The notes under the pieces: generated by a model | The model's input: the letters and a program-made list of their open reading frames with translations, nothing else | The model's database searches: none | What the model was told of the DNA's origin: nothing | Shown: positions 1 to 6,817 of the stretch, piece after piece | Layout of the letters: the number at the start of each line of letters is the position of its first letter | How positions within the stretch are numbered: the first letter of the stretch is position 1 | Position numbers and translations under genes: made by a program | From: Chloroflexota bacterium | Lineage (GTDB): Bacteria; Chloroflexota; Dehalococcoidia; UBA1151; UBA1328 | Direction: 5' to 3' | Assembly: GCA_002687335.1 (NCBI GenBank) | Contig: NYZY01000024.1 | Coordinates: forward strand, 1-6,817 | DNA length: 6,817 nucleotides

Positions 1-490
1 CAGTTTCACCAAATGGGAATCGGTTCCCTTCATGTTCAGGTATGAATACACCTTCGAATTGCCAATCGTTCCAATAGTATTTTAACGAACCTGAGACAGT
101 CCCAACCTTCCGTTCCGCTCCGGGAAGGAACATATAATAATAATCGTATGGATTCAAATTATCCGTTGGATTGTTCCCATCCACCGCGCCCCAAGCATGA
201 ATTTGTTTCCCTACTTTCACTTCTCCCCAACTTGGATACCACATGAGGTAAGCTTCACGAAGTTGGAATTCGTTTTCATTGTTGGACCAACGATATTCTA
301 ATGCAGAGTTTGTTTTAATTTCAAAATCACCGAGTGAATACCCTACCTCCTGTTCTCCTAATCTGAAAGGAAGTGAAATTTCTGATTGATCCGATAAACG
401 ATACATATTTCCTGGTTTAATTGAACCAGTGTAATTGATCTGCCCCAACAATGTCGTGATTGGAAAAACAAAACAAATCAGTTTTTTCAT
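1..490 (-). CDS. DUF1302-like outer-membrane beta-barrel protein (partial, N-terminal 163 residues)
   Basis: An ATG at 490 opens a frame that stays open to the left edge, so the C-terminal part lies outside the window. The first 17 residues (MKKLICFVFPITTLLGQ) look like a Sec signal peptide. The mature part shows alternating polar/aromatic strands typical of a porin-like barrel. Residues 76-116 hold the most telling stretch: LREAYLMWYP, then VGKQIHAWGAVDG, then NPYDY. It resembles the 'REAYl..y.G...lrvGrQ...WG.aDG....D.inP.Dl' pattern of DUF1302-type outer-membrane proteins. A second familiar element is an Ile-Pro near residue 150 after a charged/aromatic strand pair. The gene follows the LolA-like gene after only 4 bp, so it is probably cotranscribed with it. 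DUF1302-type genes are commonly found beside LolA-like and MMPL/RND genes, which supports the call. An unrelated barrel family is possible because the barrel's C-terminal half is not visible. Confidence 0.72.
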   Translation of the reverse strand, partial: MKKLICFVFPITTLLGQINYTGSIKPGNMYRLSDQSEISLPFRLGEQEVGYSLGDFEIKTNSALEYRWSNNENEFQLREAYLMWYPSWGEVKVGKQIHAWGAVDGNNPTDNLNPYDYYYMFLPGAERKVGTVSGSLKYYWNDWQFEGVFIPEHEGNRFPFGET

Positions 491-494
491 TTAG

Positions 495-1244
495 TTAATC
501 TCTTGGAAGGCGCTTAAGATTTTTTTCTTGAAATAAATTTTTATCAATGCCTGAATCAACCTGCACATCCGAAAACGTAACCTCTGTAGAATGTGTTTTC
601 TGAACATCCTTCACAAAAACCCTTTTAATGACGTGATAGTCCTTCAGAATCTGAAAAGTGAATTCTTTAACTTTTTTCAAGCGTCCGCGCTTATCGTAAG
701 ATTCCTCCTTTACACCCACAAGCGATGATTTTTCAATCCATGACACATGTTTTGAATAAGATGAATTTGCTTCCTTTCCAGGAGTGATCTCCAATACATA
801 GCAATCTTTACCTTCCACGACTTCATCATCCAATCGATTGTAGTCGTTCTCATCCAAATTTCGACTGGATAAATCTTCATAGCTCAGATCAGATCCCATA
901 AAAGCATCCCCTTTTTTCTTGGAAGATATTCGTCTTACTTTTTTAAAAGCGGGGAGCCACATACGCATTTCATCATCTTTATCATCGTGTTCAATTTTCA
1001 AAAATGCCACTCCTTTATCATCTTTCGGTTCTAAAAACCAAATTAATTGTTTTTTATTTCCATCTATAGATTTGGATATCATAGCGTTGGACCGGGATTT
1101 TCCCTTGGAATTGGTCAATATCATTTTTGTTTTGTTCGACATGTCCATCGGAGTTGGTTTCTCGTCTACCATTGTGGCTATTTCAAATCCTGTTTGTGAA
1201 AAAACAGAACTCATGAAAGTGAGTATGATTAGGATTTTATTCAT
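495..1244 (-). CDS. LolA-like outer membrane lipoprotein-sorting protein
   Basis: A 249-residue exported protein, probably periplasmic. MNKILIILTFMSSVFSQ (1-17) is a signal peptide without a lipobox. The core matches the family annotated as outer membrane lipoprotein-sorting protein (LolA/LolB-like fold, PF17131 type): residues 93-125 contain MRMWLPAFKKVRRIS, then AFMGSDLSYEDL, the family's 'lPa.krvRRis...d.FmGtDfsYeDl' signature. Members have an open beta-barrel with a hydrophobic groove and usually sit beside MMPL/RND transporters, where they are thought to shuttle a lipid-like substrate. The frame is open upstream to 1349, inside the FabH gene, but the signal peptide and a GGG-containing ribosome site fix the start at 1244. 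It lies 37 bp after the FabH-like gene and 4 bp before the DUF1302-like gene. It is not the housekeeping LolA, given its family signature and neighbours. The substrate is unknown. Confidence 0.85.
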   Translation of the reverse strand: MNKILIILTFMSSVFSQTGFEIATMVDEKPTPMDMSNKTKMILTNSKGKSRSNAMISKSIDGNKKQLIWFLEPKDDKGVAFLKIEHDDKDDEMRMWLPAFKKVRRISSKKKGDAFMGSDLSYEDLSSRNLDENDYNRLDDEVVEGKDCYVLEITPGKEANSSYSKHVSWIEKSSLVGVKEESYDKRGRLKKVKEFTFQILKDYHVIKRVFVKDVQKTHSTEVTFSDVQVDSGIDKNLFQEKNLKRLPRD

Positions 1245-1252
1245 AATATTTT

Positions 1253-1258
1253 CCCTTT
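1253..1258 (-). promoter_or_regulatory. Ribosome binding site deciding the LolA-like start
   Basis: Read on the minus strand this is AAAGGG, eight bases before the ATG at 1244. It is the clearest Shine-Dalgarno-like sequence in the operon. It supports the internal start with the signal peptide over the longer frame beginning at 1349, whose extra 35 residues overlap the end of the FabH-like gene and do not look like an export signal. Confidence 0.55.
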
Positions 1259-1281
1259 GAAAATTGCTATTGATTGGATTC

Positions 1282-2292
1282 TTACCACCGAATGGCTGCA
1301 GATGCCCACGTATACCCAGCGCCGAAGGCGGCCAAAATAATAGTGTCACCTTCTTTTACTTTCTCTTCTTCCACCGCTTCACATAGAGCTATGGGAATAG
1401 ACGCTGCCGTTGTATTGCCATATCTTTGGATATTAGCATAAAATTTATCCTGTTCAACGCCCATTCGTTTAGCCACGGATTGAATAATTCGCAAATTTGC
1501 CTGATGAGGAATAATTAATGAAATATCATCGATAGACAGATTGTTTTTTTCCAACGCTTCATGAATAACTTCTGGAAATCGAACCACTGCATTTTTAAAT
1601 ACTTCTCTCCCATTCATATAGGGTTCAAATCTTTTTGCTTGTTCAATCGTCATTTTATTTATCTGATTATCGCCAGATGAACCCGGGCCCTCCATCCATA
1701 GATTTTTTAAATCTTTACCTTGGCAATGTAAATGCGTGGATAGAATTCCACTTTCATCATCACTCACTTGGAGCACAGCCGCACCGGCACCATCCCCAAA
1801 TAAAACAGCTATATCTCTCCCCTCTGTGGATTTATTGATGAATTTCGTTTGTGCTTCAGCACCCACAACGAGAGCAGTCGTATATTGACCGGTTCGGATA
1901 AATTGATCCGCTATCGACAGGCTATACACGAATGCTGAACAGGCAGCTTTAATATCAAATGCGGCAATGTTTCTTAAACCTAATTCAGCTTGAAGTTGTG
2001 CACTTACACCGGGGAAAAAATAATCTCCGGAAATGGTCCCTACTACGACCACATCGATATCTTCTGGATTGACACCGGCCATTTCCATGGCTTTAATGGA
2101 TGCAGGAATAGCTAAATCAGATGCGGCTTCATCACCTTGAACCCATCTTCTTTGCTCGATTCCGGATCGGGTTCTGATCCATTCGTCTGAAGTATCCATT
2201 ATCGAAGTCAAATCCTGATTGGTCACGAGCTGCTCCGGGACATGAAATCCTATTCCGGTAATTTTGCTTTTTTTCAACTTATTTATACCCAT
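1282..2292 (-). CDS. fabH: Beta-ketoacyl-ACP synthase III (FabH-like, KAS III)
   Basis: A full-length 336-residue thiolase-fold enzyme. KAS III condenses an acyl-CoA starter with malonyl-ACP to give a beta-ketoacyl-ACP, priming type II fatty acid or related acyl-chain synthesis in the cytoplasm. The complete Cys-His-Asn triad is visible: Cys118 in DIKAACSAFVY, His263 in IIPHQAN, Asn293 in YGNTTAAS. Other hallmarks are TSDEWIRTRSGI near residue 34, the GDGAGAAVL loop (166-174), and a C-terminus FGAGYTWASAAIRW close to the family's usual ending. The length is slightly above E. coli FabH (about 317), from a short N-terminal extension and a longer middle loop (about 186-230) of the kind often seen in FCB-group homologues. 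Its start overlaps the transporter's 3' end by 14 bp with no clear Shine-Dalgarno, implying translational coupling. No acpP, fabD, fabG or fabF lies beside it. It may be a dedicated or accessory KAS III rather than the housekeeping one; the gene symbol is by family only. Confidence 0.9.
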   Translation of the reverse strand: MGINKLKKSKITGIGFHVPEQLVTNQDLTSIMDTSDEWIRTRSGIEQRRWVQGDEAASDLAIPASIKAMEMAGVNPEDIDVVVVGTISGDYFFPGVSAQLQAELGLRNIAAFDIKAACSAFVYSLSIADQFIRTGQYTTALVVGAEAQTKFINKSTEGRDIAVLFGDGAGAAVLQVSDDESGILSTHLHCQGKDLKNLWMEGPGSSGDNQINKMTIEQAKRFEPYMNGREVFKNAVVRFPEVIHEALEKNNLSIDDISLIIPHQANLRIIQSVAKRMGVEQDKFYANIQRYGNTTAASIPIALCEAVEEEKVKEGDTIILAAFGAGYTWASAAIRW

Positions 2293-4585
2293 CTATTAAG
2301 CGTTTTTTCAGCAATTCCGTCAGTGCAGATAAAATTGTTAGTGTGCCCAGCGAAGTAGAAACCATGGCAAATACCATTAATCCGCCAATATATTGGATAG
2401 GGAGAAATACAGAAAACATTAAAGCGCCAAAGCCCATATTTGAGCAAGCATCCAAAATAATGGGATATCCAACATCATCGATCACTTCACGACTTAGCTG
2501 ATCGGGATTCACTTTCCGGGACAACCGGCGAAATTGGGAAATGTAGTGAATGGCAAAATCAACACCTACACCAATGATAATAGACGATAAAATCGCCGTA
2601 ATATGATTGAGCGTTACACCAAAGTGGCCCATCAATCCAAAGTTTAGTATCACAGCAGACGTTAGTGGGATCACAGCCAAGGTTCCCCATAATATGCGCT
2701 TAAAAAATATTGAAGCGATTAATCCGATCACTATTAATGAAAAAGTGATACTGAATGCTGATGACCGAATGATCATGATTACCATGTCGCGGATAACAAT
2801 AATCATCCCCGTCACAGATACACTTATGTCCGAGGTTAAACTTTCATCAATATATGCATTGGTTTTATTTGCAAAATGGAATATTTCATCCGTACTCATT
2901 ATTTTGGCAAGTACCGTCATCAATCCGCTTTCATAATCCATATCATCAACAACAGACGAATAATCATTTGAAAACCCTCTAATCAAGTTTTTTATCTTTG
3001 ATGCTGAATCCGGAATTGTGTAATGGGTCAGTTCGTCGTCCATAAACGTTCGGTGCATTTGTTTCACCACATCGGCAAATGAATAACTTAAGGAAACTTT
3101 ATCTTCTTTTTCCAAGAAGGCTTGAAGCGAACTCACGTCATTGAGTACATGTGGGTCCCGCATGTCACCATCTATTCGAACTCTTAAATCTAAAGTACCT
3201 GTCATCTCTTGGTCCATGAAATCCATGCTGTCTCGAATTTCTGACCCCGGTTTAAAAAAGTTTGCAAAATTCACATCAATAGAAATTTTATGAAATCCAA
3301 ACAACCCGAAAACCACTAAAATGATACCCGCTGAAAAAACGTATTTTGGATGAGTCAATACGACTTTTCCCAAACGATCGATCGTTTTTTCGAATAGGCT
3401 CATTTCTTTGATTGCTTTTGATTCCAAGTTCCATTTTTTAATAGAAATAACGGCAGGAAGAAGAACCGAACTTAGAAACCAGGCCCAAATGATACCTGCA
3501 GAAACGGTAACACCATACCCAATCATCGGTTCCAGTGGAGAGGAAATCATTGTCAAAAAAGCAGCCACGGTCGTTATACTTGTCAAGAATATTGGTACTA
3601 GCAAAGAATCCATGGTTGTTGCCAACGCTTGTGGGACATCACCTTTCAACCGCATCTCCTTGAAAAATTTTGCCATCACATGTACACCGTCAGAATTGGC
3701 TATGGTTAATAGAATAATGGGCATGGACGTATTCATCATAGTAAACAAAAATCGATCCGATCCCGTTAATTTGTATACCCATCCCATAAACCCCATCATA
3801 GAAACCAAGGATAATCCAATCACCATCATGACCATCAATACGCCAGGGATGCTTCTCAAATTCAATAAGAGAATAATCACCATAATAAAAATGCCCATCT
3901 TCATCAAGGACTGAACGTCGTTCCGGATCAGTTCAGGAACCGTACCCGTGATGTAGGCAGATCCGCCATAATGGATTTCGTAATTCGTCAGAATTGGATC
4001 AGTAATTTCTACAAGTTTATTCCGAAATTGATCCAATCCAATGTCATCATATGGCTGTACCATTAAAATAAGATAGTCCTCCTTTTGACTGATGAAACGT
4101 TTCTTTACATTCGGATATTTATTGAGATAATCTCGAATGCCGGCTATTTCAATTTCACCCAAATCACGATCGGATTGCAAATCCTGAATGAGCAAATCGC
4201 CTTCATCATTGTCCATTCGAGTCGCAGTCGCGATGCTGGTCACTTCCTCCACCTCCGGCAAGTCTTCCAATTCCATGGCCACATCCCAGAGCACTCGTAA
4301 GGCATCCGGATGATAAATGGAATGACCCTTTTCGCCGAATGCCACAAAAATAACTTCCGTACTGCCGAATTCGTCCTGGAGAGAATCCCATGCCTTCCGT
4401 GACTCCAGATTTTGGGGTAACATTTTCATCATATCATCATCTATTACCAAAAATTTTAATCCGGAAGCCATCACTATCGTTGCAAGCAACGACACCACAA
4501 CGGATCGAACCGGATGATTTATGCTTTGATAAATAAACCATCGCCGTATAGGATGATCCGAATAATTTTTAATCTTATCGTTCAT
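2279..4585 (-). CDS. RND superfamily transporter, MMPL/HAE3 type
   Basis: A 768-residue inner-membrane protein with classic RND topology. TM1 is at about 28-46, followed by a periplasmic domain of roughly 180 residues (47-226). TM2-TM7 span 227-432, a second periplasmic domain spans 433-603, and TM8-TM12 span 604-753. The repeat symmetry (1+5, 1+5) fits hydrophobe/amphiphile efflux-3 or MMPL proteins such as HpnN rather than the roughly 1,000-residue AcrB type. Probable proton-relay residues sit in TM4 (ANSDGVHVMAKF, Asp299/His302) and TM10 (GVGVDFAIHYISQFRR, Asp676/His680). These proteins generally move lipids or other hydrophobic molecules out of the inner membrane using the proton gradient. 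I chose the ATG at 4585. An in-frame TTG at 4597 would add four residues and has an AGGA about ten bases upstream. Either start overlaps the end of the TetR gene (11 or 23 bp), and the 3' end overlaps the FabH-like gene by 14 bp. The substrate is inferred to be lipid-like from its neighbours. Confidence 0.9.
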   Translation of the reverse strand: MNDKIKNYSDHPIRRWFIYQSINHPVRSVVVSLLATIVMASGLKFLVIDDDMMKMLPQNLESRKAWDSLQDEFGSTEVIFVAFGEKGHSIYHPDALRVLWDVAMELEDLPEVEEVTSIATATRMDNDEGDLLIQDLQSDRDLGEIEIAGIRDYLNKYPNVKKRFISQKEDYLILMVQPYDDIGLDQFRNKLVEITDPILTNYEIHYGGSAYITGTVPELIRNDVQSLMKMGIFIMVIILLLNLRSIPGVLMVMMVIGLSLVSMMGFMGWVYKLTGSDRFLFTMMNTSMPIILLTIANSDGVHVMAKFFKEMRLKGDVPQALATTMDSLLVPIFLTSITTVAAFLTMISSPLEPMIGYGVTVSAGIIWAWFLSSVLLPAVISIKKWNLESKAIKEMSLFEKTIDRLGKVVLTHPKYVFSAGIILVVFGLFGFHKISIDVNFANFFKPGSEIRDSMDFMDQEMTGTLDLRVRIDGDMRDPHVLNDVSSLQAFLEKEDKVSLSYSFADVVKQMHRTFMDDELTHYTIPDSASKIKNLIRGFSNDYSSVVDDMDYESGLMTVLAKIMSTDEIFHFANKTNAYIDESLTSDISVSVTGMIIVIRDMVIMIIRSSAFSITFSLIVIGLIASIFFKRILWGTLAVIPLTSAVILNFGLMGHFGVTLNHITAILSSIIIGVGVDFAIHYISQFRRLSRKVNPDQLSREVIDDVGYPIILDACSNMGFGALMFSVFLPIQYIGGLMVFAMVSTSLGTLTILSALTELLKKRLIDGYK

Positions 4586-5183
4586 AGTATTTTTCAATTG
4601 CCTTCATTCCTTTTTTGGTGAAAATGCCTCTTGCCACAATATCCACAAACCCTTGAATTGTATTTTTAACGGATAAATCGTATTTGATGAAAAACTCAGG
4701 CTGAAACGTGGTATTGACGATATTGATGTAAATAATGACCGTCATTTTCACGTCTATCTCATTCCGAACCAATCCTTCTTCCTGTCCCTTTATAAGAATG
4801 TCATAAAATTTGTCCACTCTACTTAGACGAAACTGCTCGATCTCACGCCAAATCATCGGATATTGTGATTTTAGTTCCACCAACCGGTGAACTGACGTCT
4901 TTCCCATAATTTTTGAAATTTTTTCCATGATTTTGATGAATTGAACGGCAGGATTTGGTTCATTCGCCATAACGGATTCGAAAATGGATTCAACGCGATT
5001 CATGGCAAATTTCAAAATGGCATGAATCAAATTATCTTTTGTAGGAAAAAACTTATAGATCGTTTTTTTACTCATGGCTAAGCGTTGAGATAAAGCTTCG
5101 ACCGTAAAGGATCGGACGCCTGAATCGATAACGGATTCAAAACCTTCAGACAATATTTGATCTTTCGGCGAAATATGTGACAT
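4575..5183 (-). CDS. TetR/AcrR-family transcriptional regulator
   Basis: A 202-residue cytoplasmic repressor-type protein. The N-terminal three-helix DNA-binding domain spans about residues 7-53, with a helix-turn-helix of family type: FTVEALSQRLAMSKKTIYKF, then FPTKDNLI. The rest is an all-helical ligand-binding and dimerisation domain without a recognisable signature, so the inducer cannot be read from the sequence. The ATG at 5183 is supported because it leaves the usual short N-terminal arm before helix 1. No Shine-Dalgarno is visible. It is the first gene of the five-gene unit, overlaps the transporter start, and is preceded by a strong inverted repeat 6 bp upstream of its start codon. 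The natural reading is autoregulation together with the transporter, KAS III, LolA-like and DUF1302-like genes. Related TetR proteins in such places often sense fatty acyl or other hydrophobic compounds, but that is inference here. Confidence 0.88.
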   Translation of the reverse strand: MSHISPKDQILSEGFESVIDSGVRSFTVEALSQRLAMSKKTIYKFFPTKDNLIHAILKFAMNRVESIFESVMANEPNPAVQFIKIMEKISKIMGKTSVHRLVELKSQYPMIWREIEQFRLSRVDKFYDILIKGQEEGLVRNEIDVKMTVIIYINIVNTTFQPEFFIKYDLSVKNTIQGFVDIVARGIFTKKGMKAIEKYYER

Positions 5184-5189
5184 AAATAA

Positions 5190-5219
5190 TGGAAACGATT
5201 ATCGTATATATCGTTTCCA
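5190..5219. promoter_or_regulatory. Probable TetR operator: perfect 10+10 bp inverted repeat
   Basis: TGGAAACGAT (5190-5199) and ATCGTTTCCA (5210-5219) are exact inverted copies separated by 10 bp. A smaller nested palindrome, ACGAT-t-ATCGT, lies at 5195-5205. The whole element spans 30 bp and ends 6 bp before the regulator's ATG, a typical size and place for a TetR-family operator. With no T-run after it and a long AT-rich spacer, it does not look like a terminator. Binding here would block transcription of the whole five-gene unit. The cognate protein is inferred from position only. Confidence 0.72.
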
Positions 5220-5227
5220 AAGTTAAA
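5198..5227 (-). promoter_or_regulatory. Possible promoter of the TetR-transporter operon
   Basis: On the minus strand TTTAAC (5222-5227) and GATAAT (5198-5203) are 18 bp apart. The -10 is a 5/6 match to TATAAT; the -35 is poor (3/6). The -10 lies inside the inverted repeat, which would explain repression by occlusion, and would give a leader of only about eight bases. An alternative in the same 93 bp intergenic stretch is TATTTTTG just upstream, which fits the Bacteroidota -7 pattern TAnnTTTG but lacks an obvious partner. The location is likely; the exact hexamers are not certain. Confidence 0.3.
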
Positions 5228-5276
5228 AATATTTCAAAAATAGGACAAGTTTAAAGACGTTTATTTTTTAGATTAT

Positions 5277-6728
5277 TTAATTGGTTAAAATGAACTGAAC
5301 CAGAAAAATGACGTCGCTGATATTGACGTTTCCATCATTATTAAAGTCTGCTGGTGGTGTTGGTTCGTATCCGTAATTCATAGTCATGTCAACAAGATAG
5401 TTTATGTCCAACACATCAATAACACCATCAAAATTAATGTCACCGATGGTATATTCTGGAAATCCTCCACCGAGATAATCCATAGGATACTTTTGTGCTC
5501 GGGCGATAAAAGTTTGGCCACCGCCATAATCATGACTCCAAACCACTTGATGATCATTGGTCACTTCAAACATAATGGCATCATCACAATCCGTTATGAA
5601 CGTATTGCCATTCGGTAAACGAAAAGCGCCACCCTGCATTTGGGTGTGAAAATTACCGGTATGCATCCAAACGGGAACATTTGGGCCAAAGGGTTGATTA
5701 GGTTCCAAATTGTATGTTCCATCCGTATTCACGGGCGTTTCAATTTCAAATACGGCAGATGAATTATTCGCATAATCATTATTGTATAATATCAAATTTC
5801 CTCCTCCAGGATATCCGTCAGAAATCCAGTTTACGCCATGTTGATGGTTTAACGTTTGATCTGAACCGGTTCCCCTGTCATAAACCTGGGGGTTTCCCCA
5901 GCGATAAAGGAAATCACCGCCCATGCCGGAATTGCCACCAGAGTGAGTTGATGCTTCCTCCGACGTGGTGCTGTGATCAATTATATAGATTTCACTATGA
6001 TGCCTCGAAGAAACCACAATCTGGTTTAATTCCGCATTGTATGCAATAGCATTAAAATGCTTCCAATCGCCATTTGGGCCACCAGGACCTTGATTACTGC
6101 CTGCATTTCCAAAATTCACATCTTGCAGTTCTGGATGCTCTGAGACGACACCATAGTTTTCAGCGCTTGAATCAGCGTCTTGAATAAGATGATCCCATAA
6201 GTGCCATTCCCAAACAATATTTACATCGTTAATACCAACTGGTTCGAGCTCGAACACAGCTTCCGACCACATTACATTCAAGGAATTATTTATTTGCTGA
6301 CGCCCTGCTGCATAAGCTTCTTCTGCAGTTTTCAATTCCCATGCGATCATCAATACGTTACCATTCGGAAGCGGTTCAATATCATGATGATGCTGATAGG
6401 TTTCATTTGCGATTTCATAGGACCAGAGCAAATCGCCTTCCCAATTGTATTTCGAAACACCACCACCTACACCACCAGCCGTCATGGTCGGATTCTGAAC
6501 TCGATAAGGATAATACAAAATGCTGTCCGACATTAAATAAGCCATACTTGCCGCACCACGTGGATGGGACCAGGAATGAAGCACATTCATATCATTATCG
6601 GTTAAATATGTAAAGAAATCCCCGCCACCACCACCGCCTTGGGTTGGAGAAAAAAGCGTCATCCCATTAAAAACCTGACCAATTAGGATTCCACTGTATA
6701 AAACTAAAAAAAGAAAATATTTTATCAT
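5277..6728 (-). CDS. Secreted arylsulfotransferase-like protein with C-terminal dockerin-type repeats
   Basis: A 483-residue exported protein. MIKYFLFLVLYSGILIGQ (1-18) is a signal peptide. Residues about 20-415 look like an arylsulfotransferase-family beta-propeller, with recurring blade ends such as DIEPLPNGNVLMIAWE, GNLILYNNDY and LPNGNTFITD. Family enzymes move sulfate between phenolic compounds without PAPS, through a sulfated histidine. Candidate active-site residues are His113-115, His224 and Asn226 (WKHFNAIAY), Arg242 (SSRHHSEIY) and His295/His297 (NHQHGVN). The 18-residue His224-Arg242 spacing fits my memory of the characterised uropathogenic E. coli enzyme (His356/Arg374). The C-terminus (430-483) holds two EF-hand-like dockerin repeats, DINFDGVIDVLD and DFNNDGNVNISD, with Ca2+ ligands at positions 1, 3, 5, 9 and 12. 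Odd points: a Gly6 run at 31-36 and a single cysteine (381), so no disulfide within the chain. It appears monocistronic, 93 bp before the TetR gene. The fold call is good; activity and natural substrate are unknown. Confidence 0.75.
   Translation of the reverse strand: MIKYFLFLVLYSGILIGQVFNGMTLFSPTQGGGGGGDFFTYLTDNDMNVLHSWSHPRGAASMAYLMSDSILYYPYRVQNPTMTAGGVGGGVSKYNWEGDLLWSYEIANETYQHHHDIEPLPNGNVLMIAWELKTAEEAYAAGRQQINNSLNVMWSEAVFELEPVGINDVNIVWEWHLWDHLIQDADSSAENYGVVSEHPELQDVNFGNAGSNQGPGGPNGDWKHFNAIAYNAELNQIVVSSRHHSEIYIIDHSTTSEEASTHSGGNSGMGGDFLYRWGNPQVYDRGTGSDQTLNHQHGVNWISDGYPGGGNLILYNNDYANNSSAVFEIETPVNTDGTYNLEPNQPFGPNVPVWMHTGNFHTQMQGGAFRLPNGNTFITDCDDAIMFEVTNDHQVVWSHDYGGGQTFIARAQKYPMDYLGGGFPEYTIGDINFDGVIDVLDINYLVDMTMNYGYEPTPPADFNNDGNVNISDVIFLVQFILTN
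5308..5441 (-). other. Paired dockerin-type calcium-binding repeats (within the arylsulfotransferase-like gene)
   Basis: This encodes residues 430-473 of the protein. Repeat 1 has Asp430, Asn432, Asp434, Asp438 and Asp441; repeat 2 has Asp461, Asn463, Asp465, Asn469 and Asp472. Each is followed by the hydrophobic helix start typical of dockerin type I modules (NYLVDM and IFLVQFIL). The linker between the loops holds a proline-rich stretch (EPTPPA). Known dockerins bind cohesins, but many non-cellulosomal bacteria end secreted proteins with such pairs, where the role is unclear. Confidence 0.8.
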
Positions 6729-6736
6729 GGGTTTAG

Positions 6737-6764
6737 ATTATAAACTTAATTATATAACGGGCAA
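6737..6764 (-). promoter_or_regulatory. Candidate promoter of the arylsulfotransferase-like gene
   Basis: On the minus strand TTGCCC (6759-6764) and a perfect TATAAT (6737-6742) are 16 bp apart. Transcription from here would begin within a base or two of the ATG at 6728, giving a nearly leaderless message, and no Shine-Dalgarno is seen. A second TATAAT lies at 6749-6754 with GTGATA (6772-6777) 17 bp further up; it would leave a leader of about 15 bases. The region is AT-rich, so one of the two could be chance. Confidence 0.45.
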
Positions 6765-6790
6765 ATTAATCTATCACTTAAATATTTTTA

Positions 6791-6803
6791 GTTCATTATG
6801 AAC
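6791..6803. promoter_or_regulatory. 13 bp palindrome upstream of the arylsulfotransferase-like gene
   Basis: GTTCATTATGAAC is a perfect palindrome with 6 bp arms around one central base. It lies 62 bp before the start codon at 6728, just upstream of the promoter candidates, where an activator or repressor site could be. It is short and AT-rich, has no T-run that would make it a convincing terminator, and differs from the inverted repeat before the TetR gene. Chance is a real alternative. Confidence 0.3.
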
Positions 6804-6817
6804 AAAATTAGTAAGGA

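Follow-up and report, generated by a model that had tools for sequence, protein, structure and literature searches.

AmeABCD of Castellaniella defragrans, described as an efflux system, combines an HAE3-type RND transporter with a periplasmic protein of the LolA superfamily (DUF1329) and a DUF1302 outer-membrane protein (PMC6394551), and is the closest characterised relative of the transport unit considered here. That unit, which by analogy would work like Ame although we do not class it as an Ame member, lies in a 6,817-nucleotide stretch of DNA (contig NYZY01000024.1, positions 1 to 6,817; the window). Genes for a TetR-family regulator, an RND transporter, a KAS III (FabH-like) enzyme, a LolA-like protein and a DUF1302-like barrel follow one another in that order on the minus strand, overlapping or separated by no more than 37 bp. 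Our reading, which we hold to be probable rather than secure, is that this is a TetR-regulated, Ame-like lipid transport operon that captured an accessory FabH from the recJ block in one clade.

Other described systems resemble the unit in part. In Pseudomonas putida, the DUF1302 and DUF1329 proteins PP_0765 and PP_0766 are reported to be required if the bacterium is to grow on Tween 20, and a functional correlation links them with PP_2018 and PP_2019 (PMC10866462). The P. putida set thus shares with the window DUF1302, DUF1329 and an efflux transporter, here linked to growth on a fatty ester, but it occupies, to judge by the gene numbers, two separate loci, and KAS III is not mentioned in the part of that report drawn on here (PMC10866462). 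Efflux by Ame and growth of P. putida on Tween 20 may represent opposite directions of transport. The hopanoid transporter HpnN is also an RND protein of the HAE3 group but, unlike the window unit, is reported to work without periplasmic or outer-membrane partners (PMC6394551). The sterol transport system BstABC brings together an RND transporter, a periplasmic protein and an outer-membrane-associated lipid binder; it sits with sterol biosynthesis genes, and the part of its description used here does not name LolA or DUF1302 proteins (PMC10942540). For the enzyme, the likeness is to RsFabW and PA3286, each a second KAS III alongside the FabH or FabY that starts fatty-acid synthesis, and accessory KAS III enzymes of this kind are known to take acyl-CoAs from beta-oxidation (PMC4549310).

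The RND and LolA-like core and its predicted operator

The contig is of Marinimicrobia type: all organisms named among the listed matches (120 for the RND protein and 120 for KAS III) are Marinimicrobia, Neomarinimicrobiota or Fidelibacterota. Genomic context beyond the window was drawn from relatives. The five genes, their order and their common direction, as given in an earlier note on this DNA, are confirmed by coordinates and Pfam. The TetR-family regulator gene (4575..5183, minus strand; PF00440) overlaps by 11 bp the gene for an inner-membrane RND transporter of the MMPL/HAE3 type (2279..4585, minus; PF03176 in two stretches), whose start we place at ATG 4585, the list of open reading frames (ORFs) beginning at TTG 4597. 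The KAS III gene, a FabH-like paralogue that we call KAS3a (1282..2292, minus; PF08545/PF08541; TIGR00747, 374.8 bits against a cut-off of 292.1), either starts at ATG 2292 and overlaps the RND gene by 14 bp, or starts at TTG 2277, just past the RND stop, leaving a 1-bp gap. A gap of 37 bp separates it from the gene for a periplasmic LolA-like carrier of the LolA3/DUF1329 type (495..1244, minus; PF17131, 186.5 bits; also PF07044, 44.5 bits against 23.1). After a further 4 bp comes the N-terminal part of a DUF1302-like outer-membrane barrel (2..490, minus; PF06980, marginal at 23.6 bits against a cut-off of 23.2), which runs past the left edge of the window.

The RND protein has its best NCBIfam match in the HAE3 family TIGR00921 (190.6 bits, below the cut-off of 351.9) and scores far under the threshold of the HpnN family TIGR03480 (86.8 bits, cut-off 751.85). 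The 12 transmembrane helices previously attributed to it fit an RND protein, the sole check being a crude hydropathy scan that returned 14 partly overlapping segments. Solved relatives sought by sequence, MmpL5 and Dispatched, matched weakly and were set aside. Compared with AmeABCD, the window has a DUF1329-type carrier, shorter at 249 aa than the 451 aa reported for AmeABCD (PMC6394551), a DUF1302 protein by a marginal score, and an RND protein with an HAE3 score below the cut-off. No equivalent of AmeC (COG4447) was found among the six window proteins by Pfam at E up to 0.01, no COG model having been run. Unlike AmeABCD, the window unit has a TetR with a predicted operator and, in one clade, KAS III.

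AlphaFold gives a good model of the LolA-like protein (predicted local distance difference test score, pLDDT, 86.8). Its best PDB match is Porphyromonas gingivalis LolA3 (9tp6; E 6.2e-24, 34% identity), followed by 3bk5 and the DUF1329 protein 4z48, and the TM-score to the query is 0.81 for LolA3, against about 0.4 for classical LolA. LolA3 is reported to bind LolB weakly, and a separate function seems likely for it (PMC13103446); because of this weak binding, a lipoprotein-sorting role should not be assumed for the window protein. For a full-length relative of the DUF1302-like protein, from locus L001, the model is a barrel (pLDDT 78.3) that matches porins and AlgE, a general likeness with no closer fold match.

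To place the unit among its relatives, an RND alignment of 17 rows was scanned against one genome per GTDB species, and the best 80 of 95 confirmed places were used; with the window these make 81 loci, two of which (L011 and L080) share one genome. Sequence of 900 bp or more beyond the RND gene is available in 68 loci, counting the window; in these, the next of six sought genes is LolA-like in 57 and KAS III in 7, the remainder having an ASST-like gene (2), a second RND gene (1) or none (1). Of the 68, 67 have a LolA-like gene no more than 6 kb beyond RND, and in 53 the distance is at most 120 bp; the association of the two genes exceeds chance. A DUF1302-like gene is found within 6 kb in 38 of the 53 loci with 5 kb downstream, and TetR stands directly upstream of RND in 39 of the 75 loci with at least 700 bp upstream (window included). 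On these neighbour counts the constant core is RND and LolA-like, with TetR and DUF1302 common but not universal.

Several loci depart from this arrangement. The space between the RND and LolA-like genes holds a GH114-dockerin gene in L046 (L045 is similar-looking), an ABC transporter in L042 (where it was scanned; L054 is similar by eye), a second RND gene in L010, and short ORFs in L021 and L037. Between the LolA-like and DUF1302-like genes, L123 (2193-5652) and L033 (11848-15307) carry a TonB-receptor-plug protein, scored in L123 and similar-looking in L033, and after it a gene without a Pfam family. One contig, L026, is labelled Euryarchaeota archaeon UBA605 and bears a Marinimicrobia-type RND gene that lies near L024 in the tree, a likely binning error.

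Just before the TetR gene is a palindrome, TGGAAACGAT-n10-ATCGTTTCCA (5190..5219), with 10-bp arms that are 100% complementary, which the earlier note does not mention and which we predict to be the TetR operator. Across relatives the consensus is GGAAACG-N14-CGTTTCC (7+7), with a core of GAAACG-N14-CGTTTC (6+6). Counting the window, 39 loci have TetR; 38 of them (all except L053) carry the core around the start of that gene, and 35 carry the 7+7 form. The 608,706 bases of these loci contain no further copy of the core, nor does it precede RND in any of the 36 loci that lack TetR. In 24 chosen genomes, most with TetR, the exact 7+7 site was found once each in 18 and not at all in 6, with a reversed control of 0. 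With one mismatch allowed, 15 of 17 genomes had the site. Five of these (G007, G009, G010, G012 and G016) had a single extra copy, set against 3 in the reversed control, and we rejected a wider TetR regulon. In 20 of the 21 site loci read, the site is at the TetR gene start with RND next; in the remaining one, L241, RND is present and TetR was not labelled by the gene picker. Because the palindrome is conserved at the TetR start, we predict that TetR is a dedicated local autoregulator of its own operon. The earlier note's picture of an RND, LolA-like and DUF1302 envelope unit with its own regulator is thus upheld.

Position and history of KAS3a

The KAS III gene has a different distribution from the core. 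Counterparts of the window gene (KAS3a, 44-97% identity) were found in 46 of 62 genomes searched and not found in the other 16. They lie at the recJ block or part of it in 38 genomes, elsewhere in 1 (G030), and in the RND operon in 7, to which the window is added. The block runs recJ, KAS3a, acyl-CoA dehydrogenase (ACAD), 7TMR-HD, ybeY, mazG; both recJ and ACAD are present in the 1.5-kb flanks in 29 of the 38, and a part only in 9. In-operon KAS3a lies between RND and LolA, the operon being divided over two contigs in two of the seven genomes (G001 and G012). None of the seven has KAS3a at the old block, where G003 also has no recJ, and whole-genome search found one KAS3a in each. The earlier note had proposed that the unit includes KAS III as the maker, or primer, of the molecule it exports, and had named separation of the two in relatives as the result that would count against this. 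In 39 of the 46 KAS3a genomes the gene is away from the transporter, and 38 of these 39 have it at the recJ/ACAD block or a remnant, so that this part of the proposal is not supported.

KAS3a is also not the housekeeping enzyme, an alternative raised in the same note. In the loci read, a separate FabH, 37-45% identical to the window KAS III, occupies plsX-fabH-fabD-fabG operons, with fabF too where enough could be read; the window gene is outside this place, and we discard the possibility that it is the only fabH. The window protein has the triad Cys118-His263-Asn293, and Cys-His-Asn is found in 38 of 38 recJ-site KAS3a rows and in 7 of 8 in-operon rows, the Cys of L099 being absent owing to a run of N. 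A run of N in the assembly likewise accounts for the KAS III of L002 (12330-13644) appearing as two ORFs, with no frameshift. The ratio of nonsynonymous to synonymous substitution rates (dN/dS) for KAS III is 0.068 between the window and L001 and 0.047 between L004 and L008 (dS 1.1), values no higher than those of RND and LolA. These low ratios rule out a decaying gene and indicate that KAS3a is under constraint, consistent with purifying selection.

A quick KAS III tree was built from the window and 89 of 90 loci (90 rows). All 8 in-operon sequences belong there to a single clade (Shimodaira-Hasegawa-like approximate likelihood ratio test, SH-aLRT, 98), which is nested among the recJ-site sequences; of the latter, L181 alone is placed away from the KAS3a group. 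Both the trees and the absence of KAS3a from the old site point to a single move of the gene into the operon. In other words, KAS III looks like a late arrival and not like part of the conserved unit.

Four further genomes (G021, G028, G031 and G044) keep the ACAD of the recJ block with no KAS3a found, and in L216 recJ and ACAD are direct neighbours. An ACAD search in 13 of the 16 KAS3a-less genomes gave these four, a piece at a contig end in G024, and 8 without a close counterpart. In an ACAD+7TMR-HD tree of 22 chosen rows (7 in-operon, 4 KAS3a-less and 11 recJ-site), the four nest among the seven operon genomes in a joint clade with support of 100/100, and an exclusive clade of the seven is disfavoured (approximately unbiased, AU, test, p 0.03). 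Later loss is proposed for this reason, and one move into the operon followed by loss in a nested subclade is apparently the simplest history. The corresponding loci (L022, L031, L034 and L048) retain RND followed by LolA.

The wider neighbourhood

On the 5' side of the operon, the window holds a gene for an ASST-like protein on the same strand (5277..6728, minus; PF05935/PF14269), with a weak Dockerin match of 20.3 bits, below its cut-off. An ASST-like gene lies on the same strand within 1 kb upstream of RND in 20 of the 65 loci with at least 2.6 kb upstream.

In part of the phylum, two further operons flank the unit. A convergent operon downstream encodes FadB-like, thiolase, acyl-CoA dehydrogenase and TetR proteins (L013:13106-21563, L138 and L140). 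Among 46 loci with 9.9 kb, including L013 as the source of the queries, at least two of the three fad enzymes are present in 13, and FadB alone in 4 more; the operon is beside all three in-operon loci that could be judged (L002, L003 and L008), and also in G012. Upstream, and divergent from the ASST-TetR-RND unit, is an operon for sulfotransferase, START-type, DUF1302-like and KAS III proteins, seen in L205 (6314-10583) and its kin L201-L213, whose KAS III we call KAS3c. At least three of these four genes occur in 17 of 50 loci with 9 kb (including L008, the query source); 11 of the 17 include KAS3c, as do 2 of the 3 in-operon loci. Of this group, L202 gave a START score (31.1 bits against a cut-off of 22) and L205 did not; the second DUF1302-like protein has no Pfam match and is named by similarity to the window protein. 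The presence of these beta-oxidation and sulfotransferase/START-type/DUF1302-like/KAS III operons agrees with the lipid flavour that the earlier note gave to the unit.

KAS3c is 27% identical to KAS3a. Among low-identity KAS III matches in the 62 genomes, 15 of 21 loci were read, and 13 of the 15 are of KAS3c type, all 13 with the full triad; a second RND-LolA set is nearby in 7. A different cluster, in L214 (4346-12689) and L215 (8268-16663), encodes a KAS III-like protein without the triad His and Asn. The scan of L215 gave a weak MarR-like match, FabG-like and KAS III-like proteins, a sodium/solute symporter, an AMP-binding ligase, an alpha/beta hydrolase and a very weak alginate-export-like match.

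These observations would also allow a more elaborate picture for a part of the Marinimicrobia, to which we give little credence: a composite locus serving an envelope lipid that is sulfated and primed by KAS III, comprising two RND/LolA sets, sulfotransferase, a START-type lipid-binding protein, two DUF1302-like barrels and KAS3c as the dedicated KAS III, next to a beta-oxidation operon. The window clade would later have brought the distant KAS3a under control of the TetR operator, a second recruitment of KAS III to the transport theme.

Competing explanations and significance

In the explanation we favour, the TetR-regulated RND transporter, the LolA3-type carrier and the DUF1302-like barrel would carry a hydrophobic cargo, probably of acyl type, between the inner and outer membranes, and would do so independently of KAS III. 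TetR would bind the palindrome and may sense lipid load. An accessory FabH paralogue would have left its ancestral spot between recJ and the acyl-CoA dehydrogenase gene and, in the common ancestor of a single clade, settled between RND and lolA, thereby coming under the operon's predicted operator. There KAS3a might condense acyl-CoAs with malonyl-ACP (acyl carrier protein) and so feed acyl-CoA released by lipid breakdown back into fatty-acid synthesis whenever the regulator senses such a load.

Several points weigh against this account. The RND genes of L004, L007 and L008 group with those of operons without KAS III, a single RND clade of all 8 in-operon loci is rejected (AU p 0.005), and the in-operon state takes 2 changes in the 81-row RND tree. 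By this same test strict congruence of the RND and KAS III histories is rejected. The RND gene may have been exchanged while the KAS III next to it stayed, or insertion may have happened more than once at the same spot; the KAS III gene's own tree favours one insertion. Most of the genomes are metagenome-assembled by record title, so absences are weak evidence and may be gaps. The old recJ site was inspected in the seven operon relatives, the window's own lying outside its data. The use of acyl-CoA proposed for KAS3a is by analogy with RsFabW and PA3286, and no tool gave a substrate. Finally, FadB/A/E had no match downstream in 29 of the 46 loci considered above.

The tight coupling of the genes under one predicted operator invites the view, put forward in the earlier note, that KAS III primes a lipid that the RND, LolA-like and DUF1302 proteins then carry to the outer membrane. 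Strong purifying selection on KAS III after the move is in its favour, as is the setting of KAS3c: of the 13 loci read, 12 have it directly beside a DUF1302-like gene, in company with sulfotransferase and START-type genes. We nevertheless regard it as improbable: LolA and not KAS III is next after RND in most loci (57 of 68, against 7), RND-LolA persists in the nested subclade, where KAS3a was not found, and KAS3a usually has recJ and ACAD beside it. Production of the cargo by KAS III is disfavoured within the one clade that has it, and the idea of a unit making what it exports is weakened, though that clade did place KAS III under the predicted operator. The insertion could instead be an accident, with no functional meaning in the place where KAS III landed. 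That other genes occupy the same gap in the loci listed above fits such an accident, but the retention of KAS III in the operon in 7 of 11 clade members compared, the purifying selection on it, and the occurrence of a second KAS III (KAS3c) in the broader surroundings of the unit in some members of the phylum make this doubtful.

A further alternative overlaps with the favoured explanation but commits to uptake: the unit would bring in fatty acids or other hydrophobic compounds from outside to feed beta-oxidation, and KAS III would shunt acyl-CoAs into new fatty acids. In its favour are the FadB/A/E/TetR operon that adjoins the unit in some members of the phylum and the need for PP_0765/PP_0766 in growth on Tween 20 (PMC10866462). 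The description of AmeABCD, which has the same component types, as an efflux system (PMC6394551) and the many operons with no fad match beside them argue against it, and we think it unlikely. A lipid transport operon that acquired its KAS III secondarily is the explanation we retain as probable.

A literature search covering titles and the starts of abstracts found no description of this locus, subscription papers being mostly outside its coverage. The history proposed here corrects a tempting inference from operon structure, in that a biosynthetic enzyme embedded in a transport operon looks like a late and dispensable arrival. The states before insertion, after it and after apparent loss offer a natural experiment on what an embedded KAS III gives to the transporter. 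The analysis also provides a sharply defined, predicted TetR operator for an almost uncultured marine phylum, and the wider lipid-related locus bears on the envelopes of marine bacteria.

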